DNA of 64,000 bases, from assembly GCF_900142705.1 (NCBI RefSeq), contig NZ_FRBV01000012.1, forward strand, positions 1 to 64,000. Direction: 5' to 3'. The notes beneath the pieces are model-generated. The model saw only the letters and a list, made by a program, of their open reading frames with translations. It did not search any database and was not told the DNA's origin. Below are positions 11,824 to 64,000 of the stretch, piece after piece. Position numbers and translations under genes: made by a program. The DNA is from Nitrosospira sp. Nsp11. Lineage in GTDB: Bacteria; Pseudomonadota; Gammaproteobacteria; Burkholderiales; Nitrosomonadaceae. The first letter of the stretch is position 1. Every line of letters starts with the position of its first letter.

Positions 11824-12321
11824 TCAATGCAGGTTTTTCAGTGCCGCCAGTGCAGCAAAAAGAGATCTTTCCCCTGCCGTGTCCTTACTATCCTGCTTGA
11901 TCGAACATTCACTTTCCCCGTGACGTGGGGAAGTTGGCAAACTCAGGATTATTTCATCCTCAATCAGCGCCACAACATCCATGTCGGGGGTCGCCAGAAC
12001 ACACTCGACTGATTCATCTTCATCAAGGCGACACAGCTCATTTTCATTTTGCGCCAGCAGCAGATACGCCTGCAAATCCAGCACATATCCGTATTCCCCC
12101 AGACAACGCTGGCAACGGAGATTTATCGACCCCTGAACATCTATTTTCAGGAGCGGCCTGGCATTTATGTCCAGCGCGCCAGTAATCGCGTACTGCAACT
12201 CGCCGCCCCCGGACGTCAGATAATCCTGTAACCGCTCGAACTCGGACAGTGCGATTTTACCATGATGCGCTTCGGCATTACGGGCAAAATCGAGAGCATC
12301 AATGATGAGCCGTACCGCCAT
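11824..12321 (-). CDS. yceD: YceD family (DUF177) protein, 23S rRNA accumulation
   Basis: A 165-residue acidic protein of the DUF177/YceD family, which supports 23S rRNA accumulation in E. coli and plants. It carries the family's zinc-like motif [10 protein letters not shown] near residue 75 and the acidic stretch that follows, including [12 protein letters not shown]. It is the first gene of the minus-strand yceD-rpmF-plsX-fab operon, 25 bases upstream of rpmF, and is divergent from yceF. Confidence 0.9.
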
Positions 12322-14825: not shown

Positions 14826-15007
14826 GTTATTTCAACCCCTCAAATGAAGTGATATAGCGAACTGCGCGGAACCGGGCCTACCAAAAACGTTACGCTTTCT
14901 CATCTATTTCCGCAAACCCATACTTTTCCTCTTGCATGAGTCAGCGATAGAATCCTGGCAGGCTCCATCTGTCGAAAAAATCAGGTATATCGCTCCCGCC
15001 GAGCCTA

Positions 15008-56613: not shown

Positions 56614-56844
56614 GATTGTGCCTTCTTGTAACCCAAGGTCGAGTATGGCGAGCCAGTTGTTTCACCTCACTGATGATGAGGTAGCTTATGATTGCCCGTT
56701 CGTTGTTTATAGGACCATGCCGAGGGTTCTCGTTGTGGAGATATGCGGCTGAGATAACCAGCGTTTCAGTGTGAATATTAATAAAACAGGAAAGATATGG
56801 CAACAAAAACCCGCCTGAGCGGGTTCTGGGCTGCGGTACGAGGC

Positions 56845-57117
56845 TCATTCTGCCAGAAGGTCTACCGGCACATCCAGCGCGCGCGCCAACGCTGACAATA
56901 CTGCTATTGTTCCTGTCCGCTTACCGTTCTCGATCTGGCTCAAGAATGCCTTGCTTATCCCAGCGCTATCTGCCAAGGCTTGCAGGGTCAACTTGCGATA
57001 ATTGCGCCACGCCTTTATCCGATGCGCGCCGTCGAGAGTCGCATACAGGACTTCTGCAGGAATGCGGTTGCCATCGTCAGCCGCCTTAGCCGCTTCATAA
57101 AGCGCAATGTCGTCCAT
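56845..57117 (-). CDS. XRE-family HTH regulator, orphan antitoxin-like
   Basis: A 90-residue protein with a helix-turn-helix (RKLTLQALADSAGISKAFLSQIENGKRTGTIAVLSALARALDVPVDLL) in the C-terminal two thirds and a short N-terminal part (DDIALYEAAKAADDGNRIPAEVLYATLDGAHRI) typical of antitoxins paired with RelE-like toxins. No toxin frame precedes it: only 135 bases separate it from the divergent HigB-like gene. It may be an orphan left after toxin loss and may share the palindromic operator at 57222. Confidence 0.85.
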   Translation of the reverse strand: MDDIALYEAAKAADDGNRIPAEVLYATLDGAHRIKAWRNYRKLTLQALADSAGISKAFLSQIENGKRTGTIAVLSALARALDVPVDLLAE

Positions 57118-57221
57118 ATCAATAAAAACCTATAATTCCGCGCACGCTTCGCGTCAGAAGACAATGATGATGTCCGCACCCAAGCATATTCCCAAGCGCA
57201 GATTGCTTTTTGCGCAGTTTC

Positions 57222-57237
57222 GTATAAAATTTTATAC
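57222..57237. promoter_or_regulatory. 16-bp perfect palindrome, likely operator
   Basis: GTATAAAATTTTATAC lies 15 bases before the ATG of the toxin gene and about 105 bases from the divergent XRE gene. Toxin-antitoxin loci are autoregulated through such palindromes over their promoter, so it is a good candidate for the HigA-type binding site; the -10 element may be within it. Confidence 0.65.
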
Positions 57238-57252
57238 ACAACTATACACCAC

Positions 57253-57593
57253 ATGAAGCCCAAAAAAGAGATTCGGTGGATAGGTTCCGCCTATGAAGAC
57301 CTGCTGGCATTTCCCGACGACCCACGTCGCATAGCCGGATTTCAGCTAGGAAAAGTACAGGCCGGCTTGGAGCCGGAAGACTGGCGGGCATTCGACGAGG
57401 CGGGTACCGGTACACGAGAAATTCGCATTCGGGAAAGCAGCGGCATTTACCGGGTGATGTATGTAAATTCGAGGAAGCGGTATATGTGCTGCATTGCTTC
57501 CAGAAAAAAGTGCAGGCAACCAGCAGGCGCGACAAAGATATTGCAGAGGCGCGTTATCGTGCCGTAATCAGCATGAGGAGAGACAGGAAATGA
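57253..57593 (+). pseudogene. HigB/Gp49-like toxin gene with frameshift
   Basis: The first 71 codons read as a RelE-superfamily Gp49 (DUF891) toxin: KKEIRWIGSAYEDLLAFPDDPRRIAGFQL, then GTREIRIRESSGIYRVMYV. The frame then loses homology. Shifting by one base at 57463-57468 restores FEEAVYVLHCFQKKVQATS and RRDKDIAEARYRAVI, the normal family C-terminus, ending at TGA 57591-57593 in an ATGA overlap with the antitoxin. One missing base (GTAAATTC for an expected GTAAAATTC-like sequence) explains it. Likely an inactivated toxin, unless it is a sequencing error or programmed frameshift. Confidence 0.85.
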
Positions 57594-57922
57594 AGATCGA
57601 TATCGAAATCGGACATGTGACCAAGCCTGGAGCGAATCTGTTTCTGGAGCTTGGTTTCCCGGCCGAGGAAGCAGAGCGACTGCAAGAAGCCTCTCGGAAA
57701 CAGATCAACGACACGCAATTACTCAAGGAACAACTGATGCTGGAACTGGCGGAATGGATCGCGCAGCATCACCTCAAACAAACGGAAGCCGCAAAAATCC
57801 TGATGGTGTCGCGGCCCCGAGTCTCCGACGTAATAAACAGGAAAACAGCCAAGTTCACCATTGATACGCTAGTGGAAATGCTGAGCCGGATTGGCAAGCC
57901 GGTGCGGTTAGCGGTGGATTAA
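57590..57922 (+). CDS. XRE-family antitoxin (HigA-type, COG5606)
   Basis: A 110-residue antitoxin starting at ATG 57590; GGAGAGACAGGA lies just upstream. The HTH is HLKQTEAAKILMVSRPRVSDVINRKTAKFTIDTLVEMLSRIG. This branch is the usual partner of Gp49-type toxins. The ATGA overlap with the restored toxin frame shows the ancestral two-gene operon. It is intact although the toxin is broken, the expected order of decay. Confidence 0.87.
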   Translation: MKIDIEIGHVTKPGANLFLELGFPAEEAERLQEASRKQINDTQLLKEQLMLELAEWIAQHHLKQTEAAKILMVSRPRVSDVINRKTAKFTIDTLVEMLSRIGKPVRLAVD

Positions 57923-57952
57923 TACTGGGCTACACCCACTGGTTTTCGTATA

Positions 57953-58210
57953 TCACTTTGCGTAAGGTCCAAGTAGCAAAAATGGCCGTTTCTCAAGCTC
58001 TTGCTCTGCTTCTTCGGGTTTTTCCAGTAAGGATGAGTCATTCCAAGGATCATCTACCTGCACCCATTTATTACGATATTTGCGCAGAGTGTGTAGATCA
58101 TCTTTCAAAATACTGTCGATTGGAGCAGTATTGATCAATTCGACCAAACGTTCTGTGTTCGTACTCGAATATTCCGATCTCAGACAGGTTTCACAATCTG
58201 ATAGAAGAAT
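57953..58210 (-). pseudogene. C-terminal fragment of an unidentified protein
   Basis: The minus-strand frame reads ILLSDCETCLRSEYSS, NTERLVELINTAPIDS, ILKDDLHTLRKYRNKWV, QVDDPWNDSSLLEKP and ends after EEAEQELEKRPFLLLGPYAK. It has coding character but no start: an in-frame TAG precedes the ATT at its beginning. The KYRNKWVxVDDPW segment resembles HEPN-like or DUF4145-like helical domains found in defence and mobile loci, but I cannot place it firmly. It seems to be the 3' end of a gene cut off on its right side. Confidence 0.5.
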
Positions 58211-58402
58211 CTATGGAGCCAAAATCGGTTGATGAGAATCGTTCCGGCCGTCTAGACCACACGTACTCGAACTCGCGGAAGCAACCAATATTGTCTTTTA
58301 TGTTGACTCAATCGAGTCTGGAGTATTTGCGTTAGGACGGTGCTATGATAGCGACATACTCGTTTTATCCAGTTATTTCAATATCTTAACGATAAGTACA
58401 TT

Positions 58403-60091
58403 TTAACAATTCTTCATCATTCTCTCAAGCGCTACAACCAATGCGTCAATGGAGTTCCGCTTGTAAGAATTCAATGCATTTTTTGGGTCATTAGCAATGG
58501 ATTGGGCTACTGCACATTTAATTCTAGCTAAAATTGAGTCACTCCATGGTTTTCCTTGATCCATTGCCACGTTCTTAACTCGATCTGACCATTTTTTATT
58601 GCTTTTGAATTTTGTTACCCCCAGGTCGATTCCAAATTGTGAAAGCACGGAATCTTTATACAATTCTAGCATTACACAGTCTTCGAACTCAGCATTATCC
58701 ATTCCGAGGCAATTAATCATTGTGCAACTGTTGAGTGATATTAATGACGCTTTCTCTGCCTTATCGAAGGCCATTTTTCCAGCTTCATCTCCATCAAGAA
58801 GCGAGTGCGTTAGGCAAAGAAAATTCTTTAGAAGGGAAAGTTTGTATGAGAGATTGCCAGCCCCACCTAGTGGCTCGATTACTAAAGTATTATTTTTTAA
58901 AGCCTTCGAAATTTTTTCGCTAAGATGGGGGAGCAATGATTTTAGCGCGAGAACGTCTTCTTCGCCTTCTACAACCAATGCAAAGCTCGCATTTGTGAGA
59001 TTGTCAGAGGCCCTTATTCCAAGCAAATCTCTAATAGATCCGACATTTTTTGCTGGGGTTGCTTTCCCATCGCTAATAATAATATTTGATTTTATATCCG
59101 CACGATCAACAAACAACGGATTATGAGTGGTAATGATTACCTGGCTTGTTTCTGAAATTGTTCTAATAATTTCATTTACTTGGTGGATTGCCCCAGGATG
59201 TAGGTGGGATTCCGGTTCCTCGATTGCCAATATGGAGGCCCCACCCCTTGAATTGTGGTTCTTGAGCAAACCTAAGGCTGCGAGGCTTTTAACTCCGTCA
59301 CCCTTATATTCGATACTTGTCGGCGTGCCGTCATCAATAACAACGCTAAAATCACGCCGAAGAGCAACCCGTCTGTTAGATTCGGGAATTTCAATTTTTA
59401 CGCTGGTGATATTTGGCAAAAACTCATTTAAAGGTACTTGTACTCTAAGTGCCAAATCGTCAAGTATCGGTTGTTGCAACTTCGCAATGGTATCTAGTGC
59501 AGCCAAATAAAATTGATTGGTTTCAAGTGTCCGCAACTCCTGCGAAAGCATCTTTCCAATCAATTCAAGGGCTTCATTGTCTGTTCGTACCGCTGGAATG
59601 TAATTAAAATATATTCTATCAGCAACAAATTTTGCGATTTTGGCCGACTGTGTTGAAAGTGACTTGGTTCCTTTGCCCGGCTTTATAAGTTTTATTGCGG
59701 GCGTATTATCTTTTCCCACTCGGATCTCTAAGGGTAAGGCGCCATTAAAATTCGAACCTATTTCAGTTTTGAAACCAGCAATATCATCATCGTCTAGAAG
59801 AAACTCAAGTTTAAATATAGTTTGATTGGTTGCCTTTCGCTGTTGGAGTTGCACGGGAAAATCTCGCTTCCAATCATATGGCTGTTCATCTGAATACAGT
59901 CTTACCGATCTTTTTATTATGGCGTTTGCGGCATGTACCTGCAAAATTAACATTGCGACTTGCAATGACCTAAGAATATTAGATTTTCCTTCATTATTCT
60001 TTCCGATCAACACGGTGGTGTCTGATATGGCTATTTTATGTGCCGCAGTGATGCTGCGATAATTTGTGACCGAGAAAAAAGAAAGTTTCAA
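58403..60091 (-). CDS. OLD family ATP-dependent endonuclease (class 1, stand-alone)
   Basis: A 562-residue ABC-type ATPase fused to a Toprim nuclease. Walker A is VLIGKNNEGKSNIL (about residue 30), the signature/Walker B region is ASILAIEEPESHLHPGAIHQV (about 285) with THNPLFVDRAD after it. The Toprim domain has FALVVEGEEDVLALKSLLP (about 370) and LLDGDEAGKMAFD. This is the layout of class 1 OLD nucleases and of GajA from Gabija. No UvrD-like GajB or reverse transcriptase is adjacent. The gene is clearly more AT-rich than the core genome and sits among mobile-element remnants, so it was probably acquired. Anti-phage role is inferred. Confidence 0.88.
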   Translation of the reverse strand: MKLSFFSVTNYRSITAAHKIAISDTTVLIGKNNEGKSNILRSLQVAMLILQVHAANAIIKRSVRLYSDEQPYDWKRDFPVQLQQRKATNQTIFKLEFLLDDDDIAGFKTEIGSNFNGALPLEIRVGKDNTPAIKLIKPGKGTKSLSTQSAKIAKFVADRIYFNYIPAVRTDNEALELIGKMLSQELRTLETNQFYLAALDTIAKLQQPILDDLALRVQVPLNEFLPNITSVKIEIPESNRRVALRRDFSVVIDDGTPTSIEYKGDGVKSLAALGLLKNHNSRGGASILAIEEPESHLHPGAIHQVNEIIRTISETSQVIITTHNPLFVDRADIKSNIIISDGKATPAKNVGSIRDLLGIRASDNLTNASFALVVEGEEDVLALKSLLPHLSEKISKALKNNTLVIEPLGGAGNLSYKLSLLKNFLCLTHSLLDGDEAGKMAFDKAEKASLISLNSCTMINCLGMDNAEFEDCVMLELYKDSVLSQFGIDLGVTKFKSNKKWSDRVKNVAMDQGKPWSDSILARIKCAVAQSIANDPKNALNSYKRNSIDALVVALERMMKNC

Positions 60092-60711
60092 AATCTAATA
60101 ACCTTAATAAGTGAACATTAACGCTAGAGTTCTGCCACGACCTGAAGGAGTAGGCAACTTGATTGGCATGCCAAAATGCTCACTACTAACAGACATTCAC
60201 CCAATTTAAACTATTTAAATATGTCGAGCGTCAGTAGCGCAAAAACATTCTTTGTGCAACGGGCCCCCAAGTTAGCGAATATCGCAATATCATTGCAAGC
60301 ACCGGCACTTTGCGCATTGTAGAGCTTTTAATGATGAGCCATTGGACGAAAGTTCATCCGGGAGCACCTGGGGAGTTGAAGTGTTCAGAACTGTGGCTTC
60401 ATTCCTTCGAATTCGACGATTCCAACCTCGTGGAATTGCACCACATTAAAGAGGGTCGTCTAAGCGGGCGGTAACGCATGTACCGATGAAATGTTAGCGC
60501 TTAGGCTGCGCGTGTTGTACTTGAATCGGAAAATTCGCGCGCTGAGAAATAGTGGGGATTTGTTCGAATGCCCCGGGGGACGCCACCCCCATCTGTTTTG
60601 CGAGGTCAGCGACGACGGCCTTAATTCGCTAAGGTTCAAGGGCTTTAATTTGGTGGAATTACACTAAATTAGAATTTTTTAAGACCCTATAGAGAACCTA
60701 TAGGGTCAGAC
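60092..60711. other. Non-coding region between OLD gene and IS3 element
   Basis: About 620 bases with no gene. Two imperfect copies of a 25-base unit around GTGGAATTRCAC occur at 60424-60448 and 60648-60672 (about 19 of 25 positions equal). The right end has an ACCCTATAG/CTATAGGGT inverted repeat (60684-60706) that belongs to the GGGTCAGAC repeat interrupted by the IS. Confidence 0.45.
60684..60711. repeat. GGGTCAGAC repeat copy split by IS3
   Basis: ACCCTATAG, five bases, CTATAGGGT, then CAGAC. Removing the IS and one target copy restores TAGGGTCAGACTCCATTG across the site, similar to the palindrome at 56091. Confidence 0.7.
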
Positions 60712-60738
60712 TGAGCTAACCCGCGTTTTCCGGACGGT

Positions 60739-61609
60739 TTAATTCGGAACCTTTCTGCTGGCCTTCTCGAATACTACCGGGCTGACATATCCCAGAGTTT
60801 GATGGATCCGCTGACGATTATAGAAGAGCTCAATATAGCTGAAGATCGCTGTCCTGGCGCTTTCGCGGCTTTGGAAGTCGGTATGATGGATGAGCTCGTT
60901 CTTCAAGTTCGAGAAGAAGCTTTCAGCCACCGCGTTGTCGTAAGCACTGCCTTTTGAGCCCATGCTCGGCATGCATTCCCGCCTTTGCCATCTGCTCACA
61001 ATATCTTTGGCTCCAATAGATGGCGCCCTGATCTGTGTGATGAATCAAGTCCGGCTTGGGTGCGCGATGCTCAATTGCCATGTTCAGCGCGCCCAGTGTC
61101 AAGGCCTCGTTGGGTCGATCTCCCATGGACCAGCCTACGACTCTGCGCGAGTACAGATCAAGCAACACTGCCAAGTAAAGCCAACCGGCCCGTGTGCGAA
61201 TGAAGGTCATGTCACCTACCCAAACCAGATTAGGTTGGCGGGCATGAAAGCGTCGCTCTATCCGATCGGGTGCCGCCTGGGGAAGCTTGTGATGCTCGAC
61301 CGTGATCCGGAACCGGCGCTTGCGTTGTGCTTCGATCCCCGCCTGACTGCGTAATCTGGCGACACGATGCTTGCCGCAAGCAATGCCTGCCTGGTTGAGC
61401 GCCCTCCAGGTCTTGACTGCGCCATAATTCTTACACGTTTGCTCATGTAGCCGGCGGATTTGGCCGAGCAATTGACGATTGGCAAGAGTCCGTGCAGACG
61501 GACCGCGCTCCTGCCACTCATAAAATCCGCTGCGCGAAACAGTCAATACCTGGCACATGGCTGAGAGGTGGAACTGCTGACGATGTTGGGCAATGAACTC
61601 GTACTTCAC
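60739..61609 (-). pseudogene. IS3 transposase orfB (DDE integrase), frameshifted
   Basis: The first part reads as an IS3 OrfB: MKYEFIAQHRQQFHLSAMCQVL, the HTH_21 region, then VWVGDMTFIRTRAGWLYLAVLLDLYSR (first Asp) and LIHHTDQGAIYWSQRYCEQMAKAG (second Asp). At 60971-60976 (ATGCAT) the frame shifts; the other frame continues MPSMGSKGSAYDNAVAESFF (Glu) to HQTLGYVSPVVFEKASRKVPN. One extra base explains it. The break is between the second Asp and the Glu, so neither piece has a full active site. GTG start overlaps the orfA stop. Confidence 0.9.
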
Positions 61610-61935
61610 GGCAGTTCCCGCGCAAAGTACGCTGCGGCCTTTTTTAAGATGTCGCGCTCCTCGATCACCCTTTTGAGTTCAGCGCGCAATCGCTCATTCT
61701 CACTGCGCTCATCTTCGGGCTTGCGCCCCGACCCATGAAAGGCCTGTTCTTTGCCAACTTTGCCCAGTTGCGCCTGCCACTTGTATAACTGGTTGCGGGC
61801 AATCCCCAGTTCCAATGCAATCTTTGTGGCAGGCTTCTGTCCAAGTTCCAGAAGCCTGACTGCCTCAAGTTTGAATTCCTTGCTGTAGCGATTTCGCTCA
61901 CGCTCGGAATTCTGTTTCCCAACATTCTTCTCCAT
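61606..61935 (-). CDS. IS3 transposase orfA (HTH_Tnp_1)
   Basis: A 109-residue DNA-binding subunit: YSKEFKLEAVRLLELGQKPATKIALELGIARNQLYKWQ is the helix-turn-helix, followed by a leucine-zipper-like region (ENERLRAELKRVIEERDILKKA) and the usual AAYFARELP ending. Its TGA overlaps the orfB GTG. Intact. Confidence 0.92.
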   Translation of the reverse strand: MEKNVGKQNSERERNRYSKEFKLEAVRLLELGQKPATKIALELGIARNQLYKWQAQLGKVGKEQAFHGSGRKPEDERSENERLRAELKRVIEERDILKKAAAYFARELP

Positions 61936-62100
61936 TTGGCACCTCCGTTCACATTGTCTACCTTCTAATGTGTCCGGAAAAGCCGGGTTAGCTCAGACTC
62001 CATTGATACGAATAAACCTTCACAATGGCGCTGTCCAAAAAAAAGACCTCGAATTCGAGGGAATATCTGTTGCTCGAATTTTTCAAGTAACTGAATGTAT

Positions 62101-62114
62101 TCTATGGGGTCACA
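62101..62114. repeat. Direct repeat TCTATGGGGTCACA, left copy
   Basis: Identical to 63428-63441. The two copies bracket the DUF488 operon (62145-63405) in the same orientation. Confidence 0.8.
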
Positions 62115-62144
62115 CATTGAACGTTGAATATGAAGACATCACCG

Positions 62145-62909
62145 CTAAATCAAGGGTATCTGCGCAATCTCATCCATCCGTATGATGCCGTTTATCAGCC
62201 AAGTATTAGGATGTAGAGAATGAGTACCCATGGCGAAGAGCATGCCTTTTTCAGGATATTCGGTTCCAAATACTTTCTGCATGTGCTGAATTGCCTGGGC
62301 TTCTCCGTAACGTTCACGCCAATGAAAGAATGTGGCATCGGTTTCCCAGTCCTGACAGGTACCCTCGCGATCACCATCATCGGTCTGGTAGCGATACTTG
62401 AATCTGAACGGGCATGGTTCTAGCGGAAGCAATTCCTTTTGGTAAAACATATCCTGCTGGGTGCAAATCAGTTCATACCCACTTCTCTCCTGAGCAAGCT
62501 CGCTCGGGGATTTACGAGCTATGGTTAAACAGGGATTTTTAGGGCGCAACAGGGCAAAAGTTTTTCCTTGTGCCGAAACCGCATTGAGCCCCGTTACTTC
62601 CAGCTTGGCGAGCAGTCGCTCTTTTTCATTTTTCGGCAGCCTACCGATAATCTCGATCGAGTTCTGATCCACCCTGCGGCTTTCAGGGCGAAAATCATCT
62701 TTCGGTTTCTTCCAGCGAAAGCGGATGTGATCCCATCGACGAAATTTCTTTGCGTCTTCCAGTCTGCGAAAGGTGACAGGGTAGAGACGGAGCCATTCCG
62801 CGTTCGGGGTAATGCCGGCACAACAAACAGTCTCGCCATACTTCTGGCTGATATGCGGAGTTGCCTTGACAAGAATAACCGCCTCGCCCTCGCCCTCTGT
62901 ATCAAACAT
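62145..62909 (-). CDS. Uncharacterised protein coupled to DUF488
   Basis: A 254-residue soluble protein from ATG 62907-62909, which overlaps the end of the DUF488 gene by eight bases; a 16-codon longer frame is less likely. It begins with a strand-rich part (EAVILVKATPHISQKYGETVCCAGI), then WLRLYPVTFRRLEDAKKFRRWDHIRF, and has a conserved-looking C-terminal block EPCPFRFKYRY, CQDWETDATFFHWRERYG and GMLFAMGTHSLHPNTWLINGIIR. Several Cys/His could bind metal. I recognise no characterised family. The strong coupling implies a joint function with the DUF488 protein. Confidence 0.85.
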   Translation of the reverse strand: MFDTEGEGEAVILVKATPHISQKYGETVCCAGITPNAEWLRLYPVTFRRLEDAKKFRRWDHIRFRWKKPKDDFRPESRRVDQNSIEIIGRLPKNEKERLLAKLEVTGLNAVSAQGKTFALLRPKNPCLTIARKSPSELAQERSGYELICTQQDMFYQKELLPLEPCPFRFKYRYQTDDGDREGTCQDWETDATFFHWRERYGEAQAIQHMQKVFGTEYPEKGMLFAMGTHSLHPNTWLINGIIRMDEIAQIPLI

Positions 62910-63405
62910 GGGCGGCTTCTGGAAAAACTGTCTGGATGCTTTGCAGATGCGCGACACCTTTCTGCACGCCGATGGGCTGAATACGCTGGCCGGTATCAGC
63001 AGCTATAGCTTTCGCCACGATCGTACGATGACATTCTTCGGGGTTGCGCTCATAGCATAGAAGGCACGATACACTGGAGCTCGCTAAACCTATCGCCGTC
63101 TGAAGATCGGCCACCGCCCCTGCTGTTTTCATGTGGCTGGTGAATATCCGGAGGAATGCTTCGTGGTCACCAGAACGCGCAGCCTCACGGCCTTCCTTAG
63201 GATCACCAAGTCCTTTCAGATGGACATAATCAACGTCATTCGCCTGCAACAATTCACGGAGAATATTTTTCGAGAAACCTTTTCTGCGTGAAAGTGGATA
63301 TTCCCGAACATCGATGATCCTTTCGATATTGGCAACCTTAAGGGTGGCAATGAAATCCTCTATCGCAGAGTTTTCATAGCCAAGGGTGTAGAGTTTACCT
63401 GCCAT
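62902..63405 (-). CDS. DUF488 family protein
   Basis: A 167-residue protein of DUF488 (COG5483 type). It shows the family features KLYTLGYENSAIEDFIATLKVANIERIIDVREYPLSRR, then GFSKNILRELL, VHLKGLGDPKEGR and the C-terminal cysteine motif CLLCYERNPEECHRTIVAKAI. The CxxC-E-x-x-P-x-x-CHR pattern suggests a metal or thiol site. Function has not been established. It is the first gene of a two-gene operon close to the island boundary. Confidence 0.9.
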   Translation of the reverse strand: MAGKLYTLGYENSAIEDFIATLKVANIERIIDVREYPLSRRKGFSKNILRELLQANDVDYVHLKGLGDPKEGREAARSGDHEAFLRIFTSHMKTAGAVADLQTAIGLASSSVSCLLCYERNPEECHRTIVAKAIAADTGQRIQPIGVQKGVAHLQSIQTVFPEAAHV

Positions 63406-63424
63406 AACTATTCAACCGCTCTGT

Positions 63425-63492
63425 GAATCTATGGGGTCACAAACCTATACGAATCTAAGGTGCGAATCTATGGGGTGCGAATCTATGAGGTC
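63425..63492. repeat. Degenerate tandem repeat of GAATCTATGGGGTSAC
   Basis: Units start at 63425, 63451, 63464 and 63479 (GAATCTATGGGGTCAC, GAATCTAAGGTGC, GAATCTATGGGGTGC, GAATCTATGAGGTC). The first contains the 14-mer that also occurs at 62101. Confidence 0.8.
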
Positions 63493-63519
63493 GGATTCGA
63501 TTGATAAGATCACTACCAG

Positions 63520-63541
63520 TTTTGCGGAGCGCTCCGCAAAA
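63520..63541. repeat. 22-bp perfect palindrome near the att site
   Basis: TTTTGCGGAGC and its complement meet with no spacer. It contains two inverted TTTGCGGA octamers and is followed by a short CTTG-TTTTTTG-CAAG stem. It may be an integrase or excisionase site, or a terminator. Confidence 0.8.
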
Positions 63542-63589
63542 TGCTTGTTTTTTGCAAGACACAAAAAGCGCTAAAACCCTTGCTGTTAT

Positions 63590-63636
63590 TGGCTCCCCGA
63601 CCAGGGCTCGAACCTGGGACCTGCGGATTAACAGTC
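63590..63636 (-). tRNA. tRNA-Asn(GTT) 3' fragment, island attachment site
   Basis: The minus strand reads the 3' 47 nt of tRNA-Asn: ACTGTTAATCCGC with anticodon GTT, the T arm CCAGGTTCGAGCCCTGG, then the acceptor strand and encoded CCA. Upstream of GACTG the tRNA sequence stops abruptly (AGTAGACTG instead of CGGACTG), so the D arm and 5' acceptor strand are absent. Such 3' ends are the duplicated core of elements that integrate into tRNA genes. An integrase gene lies next to it. Confidence 0.9.
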
Positions 63637-63677
63637 TACTGCGTTTTCTTGGAAAATCCGGCGGTTATGTAAAATTC

Positions 63678-63741
63678 ATTTCCGCAAATGATGGTTTTCT
63701 GACCCGCATGGCTGTTAGGTTTTAGAAGATTTGCGGAAATG
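63678..63741. repeat. Inverted repeat ATTTCCGCAAAT / ATTTGCGGAAAT
   Basis: Twelve-base arms at 63678-63689 and 63730-63741, perfect complements, between the tRNA fragment and the integrase stop. Each contains the TTTGCGGA octamer that also forms the palindrome on the other side of the tRNA fragment. Confidence 0.85.
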
Positions 63742-63750
63742 CCAAATCAT

Positions 63751-64000
63751 TATTTTGTTGGCTCAACCTTCTCGCCCGCACGAGCGCGAACGTAATGTTC
63801 GGTCATCTTTATGGTGCTGTGACCAAGTTGTTTTTGAGCCTGAACCATATCTCCGGAGTCGGCTTTATCCGTCCCAGCTTTGGCCCGTAAGTCACGGAAC
63901 TGGTACGCCTCGATTGCGTCTTTCAGTCTAGGGTTTGCTTTGATTGCCGCGACCCTGGCGGCGTCGAAACGATACCGTAAAGCCTCCCTACCTAATTGCT
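63751..64000 (-). CDS. Tyrosine recombinase/integrase, C-terminal part (runs off right edge)
   Basis: Minus-strand frame ending at TAA 63751-63753 and open to the window edge, 82 residues visible. It reads AYQFRDLRAKAGTDKAD, then MVQAQKQLGHSTIKMTEHYVR and ends RAGEKVEPTK. The catalytic Arg of box II is in FRDLRAKA, the LGH motif carries the conserved His, and the nucleophile is the Tyr in TEHYVR. It lies 114 bases from the tRNA-Asn fragment, as expected for the integrase of an island or prophage using that tRNA. Confidence 0.92.

Follow-up and report, generated by a model that had tools for sequence, protein, structure and literature searches.

A probable hybrid attachment junction at a Nitrosospira tRNA-Asn and a candidate arm-site code in its integrase family

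We analysed a 64,000-nt stretch of the Nitrosospira sp. Nsp11 genome (positions 1 to 64,000 of contig NZ_FRBV01000012.1, hereafter the window), and its right-hand end is very probably the integrase-proximal hybrid att junction of a tRNA-Asn prophage; the binding, the recombination and the history of the element on the left that this reading entails are deduced from sequence. Four copies of the octamer TTTGCGGA surround the junction and are most likely the docking sites, as predicted here, of two different phage integrases with this tRNA gene as their common target: one pair of octamers appears to be the resident prophage's own, and the other to mark the end of a further element that has since decayed. 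A sequence-only reading of this DNA had taken the four octamers for arm-type sites arranged around a recombination core. Comparative evidence bears this out, although the four do not form the set of a single integrase, as the left pair is of the G type and the right pair of the A type, according to the base that follows the heptamer TTGCGGA. Comparison across the family further suggests that the base read at the arm site is determined by a few residues near the N-terminus of the integrase.

Methods

The host, Nitrosospira, is an ammonia-oxidising soil bacterium, and the genus set compared here comprised 23 Nitrosospira genomes including its own. C25 is the contig carrying the window and C26 another contig of the same genome; P0001 is the resident tyrosine integrase, G006 a one-contig Nitrosospira relative, and L numbers denote integrase/att loci. 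Loci entered the sets in order of their resemblance to the query, up to 80 per list, and so do not sample the family at random. After manual removal of 16 loci repeating the same place, and of partial integrases through a filter on coordinates, 100 loci remained. At least 120 bp followed the integrase in 68 of them (nine from bacterial genomes, the others being viral contigs or phage records), and shared att DNA reduced the 68 to 63 non-redundant loci.

Concordance was counted in the elements with at least two sites, 39 in all and 38 once the window was excluded. The integrase covariation set also held 38 members: it lacked L102, which has no complete protein, and included the window, which was assigned to A from the pair on the integrase side. 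For the new-locus set we started from 129 loci, of which 51 were dropped for having under 120 bp downstream, 41 because their att region was already represented and three for want of a match, leaving 34; at least two sites were present in 25 of these, and 22 of the 25 were called by the rule described below. The six contigs sharing the palindrome, our own excluded, were reduced to four by shared att DNA (L101, L102, L103 and L106), L104 being left out by hand as the counterpart of L106.

Results

The sequence-only reading had noticed a 47-nt tRNA-Asn 3' end between the two octamer pairs, and we confirmed it on the minus strand as part of a 63-bp att core (Table 1). It had also named a second att copy and an intact tRNA-Asn, joined to the same integrase element, as the observations on which its case depended. 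Both were found on C26, where the core is repeated without a mismatch and the tRNA is restored, ARAGORN placing the intact tRNA-Asn(GTT) at C26:12147-12222, and collinearity with G006 joins the two copies to one element. From 63637 to its end, C25 encodes the integrase, a terminase and the major head protein, and C26:1-12146 encodes the end of a tape-measure protein, a tail protein, an endolysin and a DNA methyltransferase. C26:1-6808 and the integrase and terminase parts of C25 occur in order within G006:C1 2653777-2693691, a single prophage of 39.9 kb that runs from the end of a tRNA-Met (2653777) to the integrase end (2693691). Because of this collinearity, the pieces on C25 and C26, contigs that do not touch, would be the two halves of one tailed-phage prophage, and the G006 map puts the gap between them at about 1.5 kb. 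The match to G006 is mosaic, some of the C25 prophage genes being closer to G006 222-229 kb than to the collinear prophage.

The P-arm of the resident prophage was located on C26, at 12079-12104, where two direct TTGCGGAAA sites (GAATTGCGGAAAA copies) of the A type lie 19 nt apart. Repeated arm-type sites are found on both sides of the core, on its right side in C25 and in the P-arm on C26, and they are found in the complete attP of L080 and L082. A public viral contig of the resident prophage (L079, IMGVR_UViG_2671180073_000005, 27,006 b) extends beyond the att core by about 2 kb of the segment on the left, and its predicted viral boundary looks off. The tRNA-Asn gene is an integration hotspot in Nitrosospira: extra 47-nt core fragments with at most one mismatch, at least one per genome and with varied flanks, were seen in G022, G015, G013, G004, G008, G005, G009 and G010 (L038-L048).

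Table 1. Features at the junction and in the adjoining variable segment (window coordinates; C26 and C25 coordinates where indicated)
Feature	Position	Strand	Remark
TTTGCGGA octamer	63521-63528	+	left pair
TTTGCGGA octamer	63533-63540	-	left pair
TTTGCGGA octamer	63681-63688	-	right pair
TTTGCGGA octamer	63730-63737	+	right pair
Perfect palindrome, 22 bp, two inverted octamers with G-type extension, TTGCGGAGC	63520-63541		putative P-arm of second element
Resident-prophage arm site, integrase-side arm, ATTTGCGGAAATG	63677-63689	-	equivalents in L080, L082, L089
Second resident-prophage arm site, inverted relative to the first	63729-63741	+	50 bp start to start
att core, 63 bp (47 nt of tRNA-Asn and 16 nt downstream)	63574-63636	-	63/63 identical to C26:12131-12193 (blastn-short)
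tRNA-Asn(GTT) 3' 47 nt, anticodon stem-loop to CCA	63590-63636	-	inside att core
Variable segment, remnant island or putative second element	56645-63573		between G006-matched DNA (to 56644) and att core
DUF488 protein, PDC-M19A-like, candidate defence	62902-63405	-	variable segment
PDC-M19B-like partner, candidate defence	62145-62957	-	variable segment
OLD/GajA-like AAA ATPase, candidate defence	58403-60091	-	variable segment
IS3 transposase	60923-61935		variable segment
Two small ORFs	57253-57567, 57494-57922		variable segment; no PADLOC or NCBIfam match
Tyrosine integrase P0001, C-terminal part	63750-64000	-	349 aa; gene runs on to C25:64799

The integrase gene that the sequence-only reading placed alongside the core is that of P0001, which ends at 63750. 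P0001 contains a tyrosine recombinase catalytic domain (PF00589, E 9.2e-20), and R203, K226, R305, H327 and Y336, which we take to be its catalytic residues, are invariant across 15 aligned sequences. Its predicted N-terminal arm-binding domain has strands at residues 15-20, 23-29 and 37-41 and a helix at 44-58 (mean pLDDT 87.7). The protein is homologous to lambda integrase over nearly its full length, the N-terminal domain included: positions 1-342 of the P0001 profile align to residues 1-347 of the lambda Int chain in 1z1b (E 5.6e-23), and the best Foldseek matches of the P0001 model are 1z1b and 1z1g. By these predicted features P0001 is a lambda-type (arm-binding-domain) tyrosine integrase with a tRNA att site, and it falls into class A, its residues 18-21 bearing the arm-class motif RR-RG.

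The most recurrent 7-mer within 350 bp 3' of the integrase stop in the 63 non-redundant loci was TTGCGGA/TCCGCAA, and 39 of the loci contained at least two copies. With the window included, the spacing between neighbours on the same strand was 19-20 in 21 of 28 cases; neighbours facing away from each other were spaced by 50-51 (6 of 22) or 59-61 (14 of 22), and those facing each other by 11 (5 of 19) or by 112-194 (the other 14). Differences between the preferred spacings come close to whole turns of the helix. Complete sites consist of a direct pair, the core and an inverted pair, and the integrase gene may stand on either side. Among the 23 Nitrosospira genomes the pattern TTGCGGA-N12-TTGCGGA occurred at nine places, against none for the reversed control; six of these places adjoin a complete tRNA (five tRNA-Asn and one tRNA-Met) and the other three a tRNA-Asn core fragment. 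The phage contig L080 carries a complete attP, in which the integrase stop is followed by the inverted pair, the tRNA-Asn core and the direct pair, one member being degenerate. Similar arms are present next to a tRNA-Met core in L082 and in L081, which is the prophage of G006 itself, suggesting that the arms go with the integrase rather than with the tRNA.

Fewer than two copies of TTGCGGA were present in 24 of the 63 loci. When variants with one mismatch were sought in those 24, only Mannheimia phage 587AP2 had a clear substitute with the layout unchanged (TTTCGGA), and partial ones were seen elsewhere. The distant relatives L084, L085 (587AP2) and L088 have other repeats after the integrase, namely GTTCCATAAC, TTTCGGAAC and TTGGAAACG, the layout of 587AP2 being unchanged. 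On the comparative evidence, TTGCGGA behaves as an arm-type site of the whole integrase family, and integrase binding to it is predicted.

At the junction itself, the palindrome of two inverted octamers described on the left of the core proved to be perfect over all of its 22 bp, and the two further octamers described in an inverted repeat on the right are held in a perfect 13-nt repeat. The start given for one of these, 63681, was exact, and that of the other had to be moved from 63731 to 63730. The window contained nine octamers against 4.19 expected, and 1 of 100 shuffles reached nine. The sequence-only reading had proposed a genome-wide count as a test of enrichment; over the 3.2-Mb genome the excess was weak (197 octamers versus 151 for the pattern read backwards), so that the meaning of the octamers rests on their clustering and geometry at the att core, and whole-genome enrichment was dropped as an argument. 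It had also stated that the octamer lies in gene-free spaces, which holds for the four att copies, none of which overlaps an ORF of at least 100 aa, and for the copy at 14909, but not for the other four in the window, which overlap such ORFs.

The base following TTGCGGA was uniform within the element in 36 of the 38 elements other than the window and discordant in two, whereas 5000 shuffles gave a mean of 13.1 and a maximum of 21. In the new elements it was uniform in 23 of 25 and discordant in two. The window is itself discordant, with A,A in the integrase-side pair and G,G in the palindromic pair, so that a probable element end of a different arm class stands across the core. Because the palindrome is of the G type, while the resident integrase and its arm on C26 are of the A type, the palindrome most likely comes from the element of another integrase.

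The inner 18 bp of the palindrome recur in seven IMG/VR contigs, one of which is from our own genome. All seven encode a P0001-family integrase, cut in one case by the contig end. The integrases of the other six are 42-56% identical to P0001, and in these contigs the palindrome lies between the integrase 3' end and the tRNA or tRNA segment, or just past that segment. The P-arms found at tRNA-Asn in the genus are direct pairs, unlike the palindrome, and as a general feature of Nitrosospira the palindrome was ruled out, being present in 1 of the 23 genomes. We lean towards regarding a dyad in which two arm sites are spaced by 11 bp as a second recurrent P-arm architecture, a claim made jointly with the residue-base code proposed below. 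In L101, L103 and L106, unlike in the window, the tRNA segment by the palindrome is a 5' half or the 5' end of the tRNA faces the palindrome; those elements may enter the tRNA from its 5' side.

To the left, the palindrome adjoins a variable segment with candidate defence genes (Table 1). No match of G006 to the roughly 7 kb after 56644 was found among the matches listed (E ≤1e-20; 30 of the 39 candidate places having been scored). A 16-nt direct repeat, TGYGAATCTATGRGGT, is present in three copies at 63422-63491 in front of the DUF488 gene, with a 14-nt match at 62101-62114. Left of the junction, C25 contained no second core, second integrase or long repeats that fit; we therefore call the segment a remnant or one-ended island, and all that shows of the second element is its right end together with the variable segment.

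The suffix class tracks residues 19-22 of the integrase across the 38 integrases of the covariation set, R-RG going with A, Q[KR]SG with G and K[APS]xG with C. Mutual information peaked at P0001 residues 20 (z 9.9) and 21 (z 9.6), ahead of a next value of 4.9, by shuffles that ignore kinship, and in the predicted model the code residues lie in the turn between strands beta1 and beta2 of a domain made up of a three-stranded sheet and a helix. Of the 38 integrases from which the rule was derived, 35 fit it, two were not called and one was wrong. In the new loci, 21 of the 22 calls were right and one was wrong (shuffle mean 8.9; 0 of 100,000 shuffles as high), and 3 of the 25 loci with at least two sites were not callable. 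Parsimony on a quickly built tree of the 63 integrases requires 16 or more changes of class. That class simply follows the integrase tree was rejected, with 11 changes in the 38 integrases (24 of 200 shuffles as low, the classes being taken together) and 16 in the 63. On supported branches, the G class gave eight independent pairs, of which seven to eight ran in the same direction and none in the opposite one (median p 0.008); the A and C classes gave five each, nearly all in the same direction and too few for p<0.05.

Discussion

The four sites could be read otherwise, as belonging to the resident prophage alone, with the palindrome as its own or adapted extra arm and the whole as a complete attP-like chromosomal site bound by the resident integrase. 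The distal half of the palindrome does lie 222 nt from the integrase stop, as the P-arm site does in the complete attP of L080, and four sites with a core make up the attP layout of the family. However, the resident prophage has its P-arm on C26, an A-type direct pair with a spacing of 19 nt, and the G-type palindrome is discordant with a class A integrase. Furthermore, beyond the core of a single lysogen at a tRNA, as known for tRNA-targeting prophages, the DNA is non-phage, and the same should hold to the left of the core here. We consider this reading unlikely. The least likely of the alternatives, in our view, is that only the right pair is an arm and the palindrome is a feature of the chromosome or island itself, for instance a terminator. 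It was scored as terminator-like on the + strand, with a stem at 63519-63542 followed by GCTTGTTTTT (one in the stretch versus 0.3 expected from shuffles), and the two roles are compatible and could coincide. Against its being such a feature, the palindrome was absent from all 22 other Nitrosospira genomes at up to one mismatch, and in the IMG/VR contigs it keeps company with a P0001-family integrase and stands by the integrase or a tRNA segment. The genes to its left (62145-63405) are on the minus strand, so that no family-matched neighbour gene runs into it on the + strand.

It is also conceivable that the TTGCGGA repeats are sites of another protein carried along with the integrase gene, such as an excisionase or a repressor. 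In F10 and other such relatives the integrase has an excisionase gene as its neighbour, and Xis sites are typically direct repeats. Yet the same motif occurs on both sides of the core, and the variable base covaries most, among the integrase columns tested, with N-terminal residues and is predicted by them in the new loci, which makes another protein a very unlikely owner of these sites.

We thus favour a junction of two elements. In its right half (63677-63741), the N-terminal domain of the resident integrase would bind the two inverted arm sites while its C-terminal domains carry out recombination at the tRNA core. The left half (63520-63541) would be a palindromic P-arm left by a previous occupant of this tRNA-Asn, of which about 7 kb lacking an integrase would remain, and the later prophage would have entered at the core, between the earlier arm and the tRNA. 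Each arm site would consist of TTGCGGA plus one base set by residues 19-22 of the arm-binding domain, at the beta1-beta2 turn, and, with base 8 set by the integrase, the arm sites of one element would change together. These residues would govern preference, RR-RG favouring TTGCGGAA over TTGCGGAG, and a swap to QKSG would alter it.

Among phages of other hosts, PA8 and F10 of Pseudomonas and 587AP2 of Mannheimia have integrases about 40-42% identical. PA8 has TTGCGGAAA in the layout of the P0001 family, 587AP2 has TTTCGGAAC in that layout, and F10 has one TTGCGGAAA and near-variants; the annotations of these regions name no arm sites. In published work, lambda has five arm sites, in arms P and P', and a two-domain mode of binding (PMC4880445). 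The P0001 family likewise has arm sites in both arms, and unlike lambda with its five it typically has four, of the form TTGCGGA+N, as a direct and an inverted pair or a palindrome, around a tRNA core. In the cluster K1 mycobacteriophages CrimD, Angelica, Anaya and Adephagia, four arm sites flank the core with one pair inverted relative to the other, and position 7 of the arm site varies with integrase residues 17 and 19, proposed there as recognition candidates (PMC3203893). The P0001 family resembles them in both respects, and the idea of matching an arm-site base to an integrase residue is already in that paper, in which four close phages and one varying position were compared; here there are 63 integrases, at least 16 changes and three base classes, and the rule was tried on new loci. 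The attL of KplE1 IntS at argW is similar in its tRNA target and its integrase arm-type sites, but those overlap the integrase promoter (PMC2951348) whereas the P0001 sites lie 3' of the gene. The acquisition of the arm-binding domain by mobile-element recombinases has been described (PMC8138268). In open-access titles and abstract openings no palindromic arm sites of the P0001 family were reported, and among the matches listed for the heptamer with integrase in the open-access literature no title concerned tyrosine-integrase arm sites. At this level, open access and mostly titles and abstracts, we met no printed account of a fixed-spacing heptamer shared by the family, of the palindromic variant of the P-arm, of a three-class rule tried out by prediction, or of the hybrid junction.

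The covariation makes us favour, with modest confidence, a code in this lambda-type family in which residues 19-22 set base 8 (R-RG for A, Q[KR]SG for G, K[APS]xG for C). It would have switched at least 16 times with the attP sites changing along, and would keep neighbours at one tRNA from cross-reacting; the window would then show two classes side by side. The arm sites of phage integrases have usually been worked out phage by phage. Here, in much of a large integrase family, one strictly spaced heptamer is a marker of att sites, so that prophage ends and hybrid junctions may be called from sequence. The residue-base rule would make arm recognition, and the evolution of att specificity in which several sites change together, testable by swaps of two to four residues.
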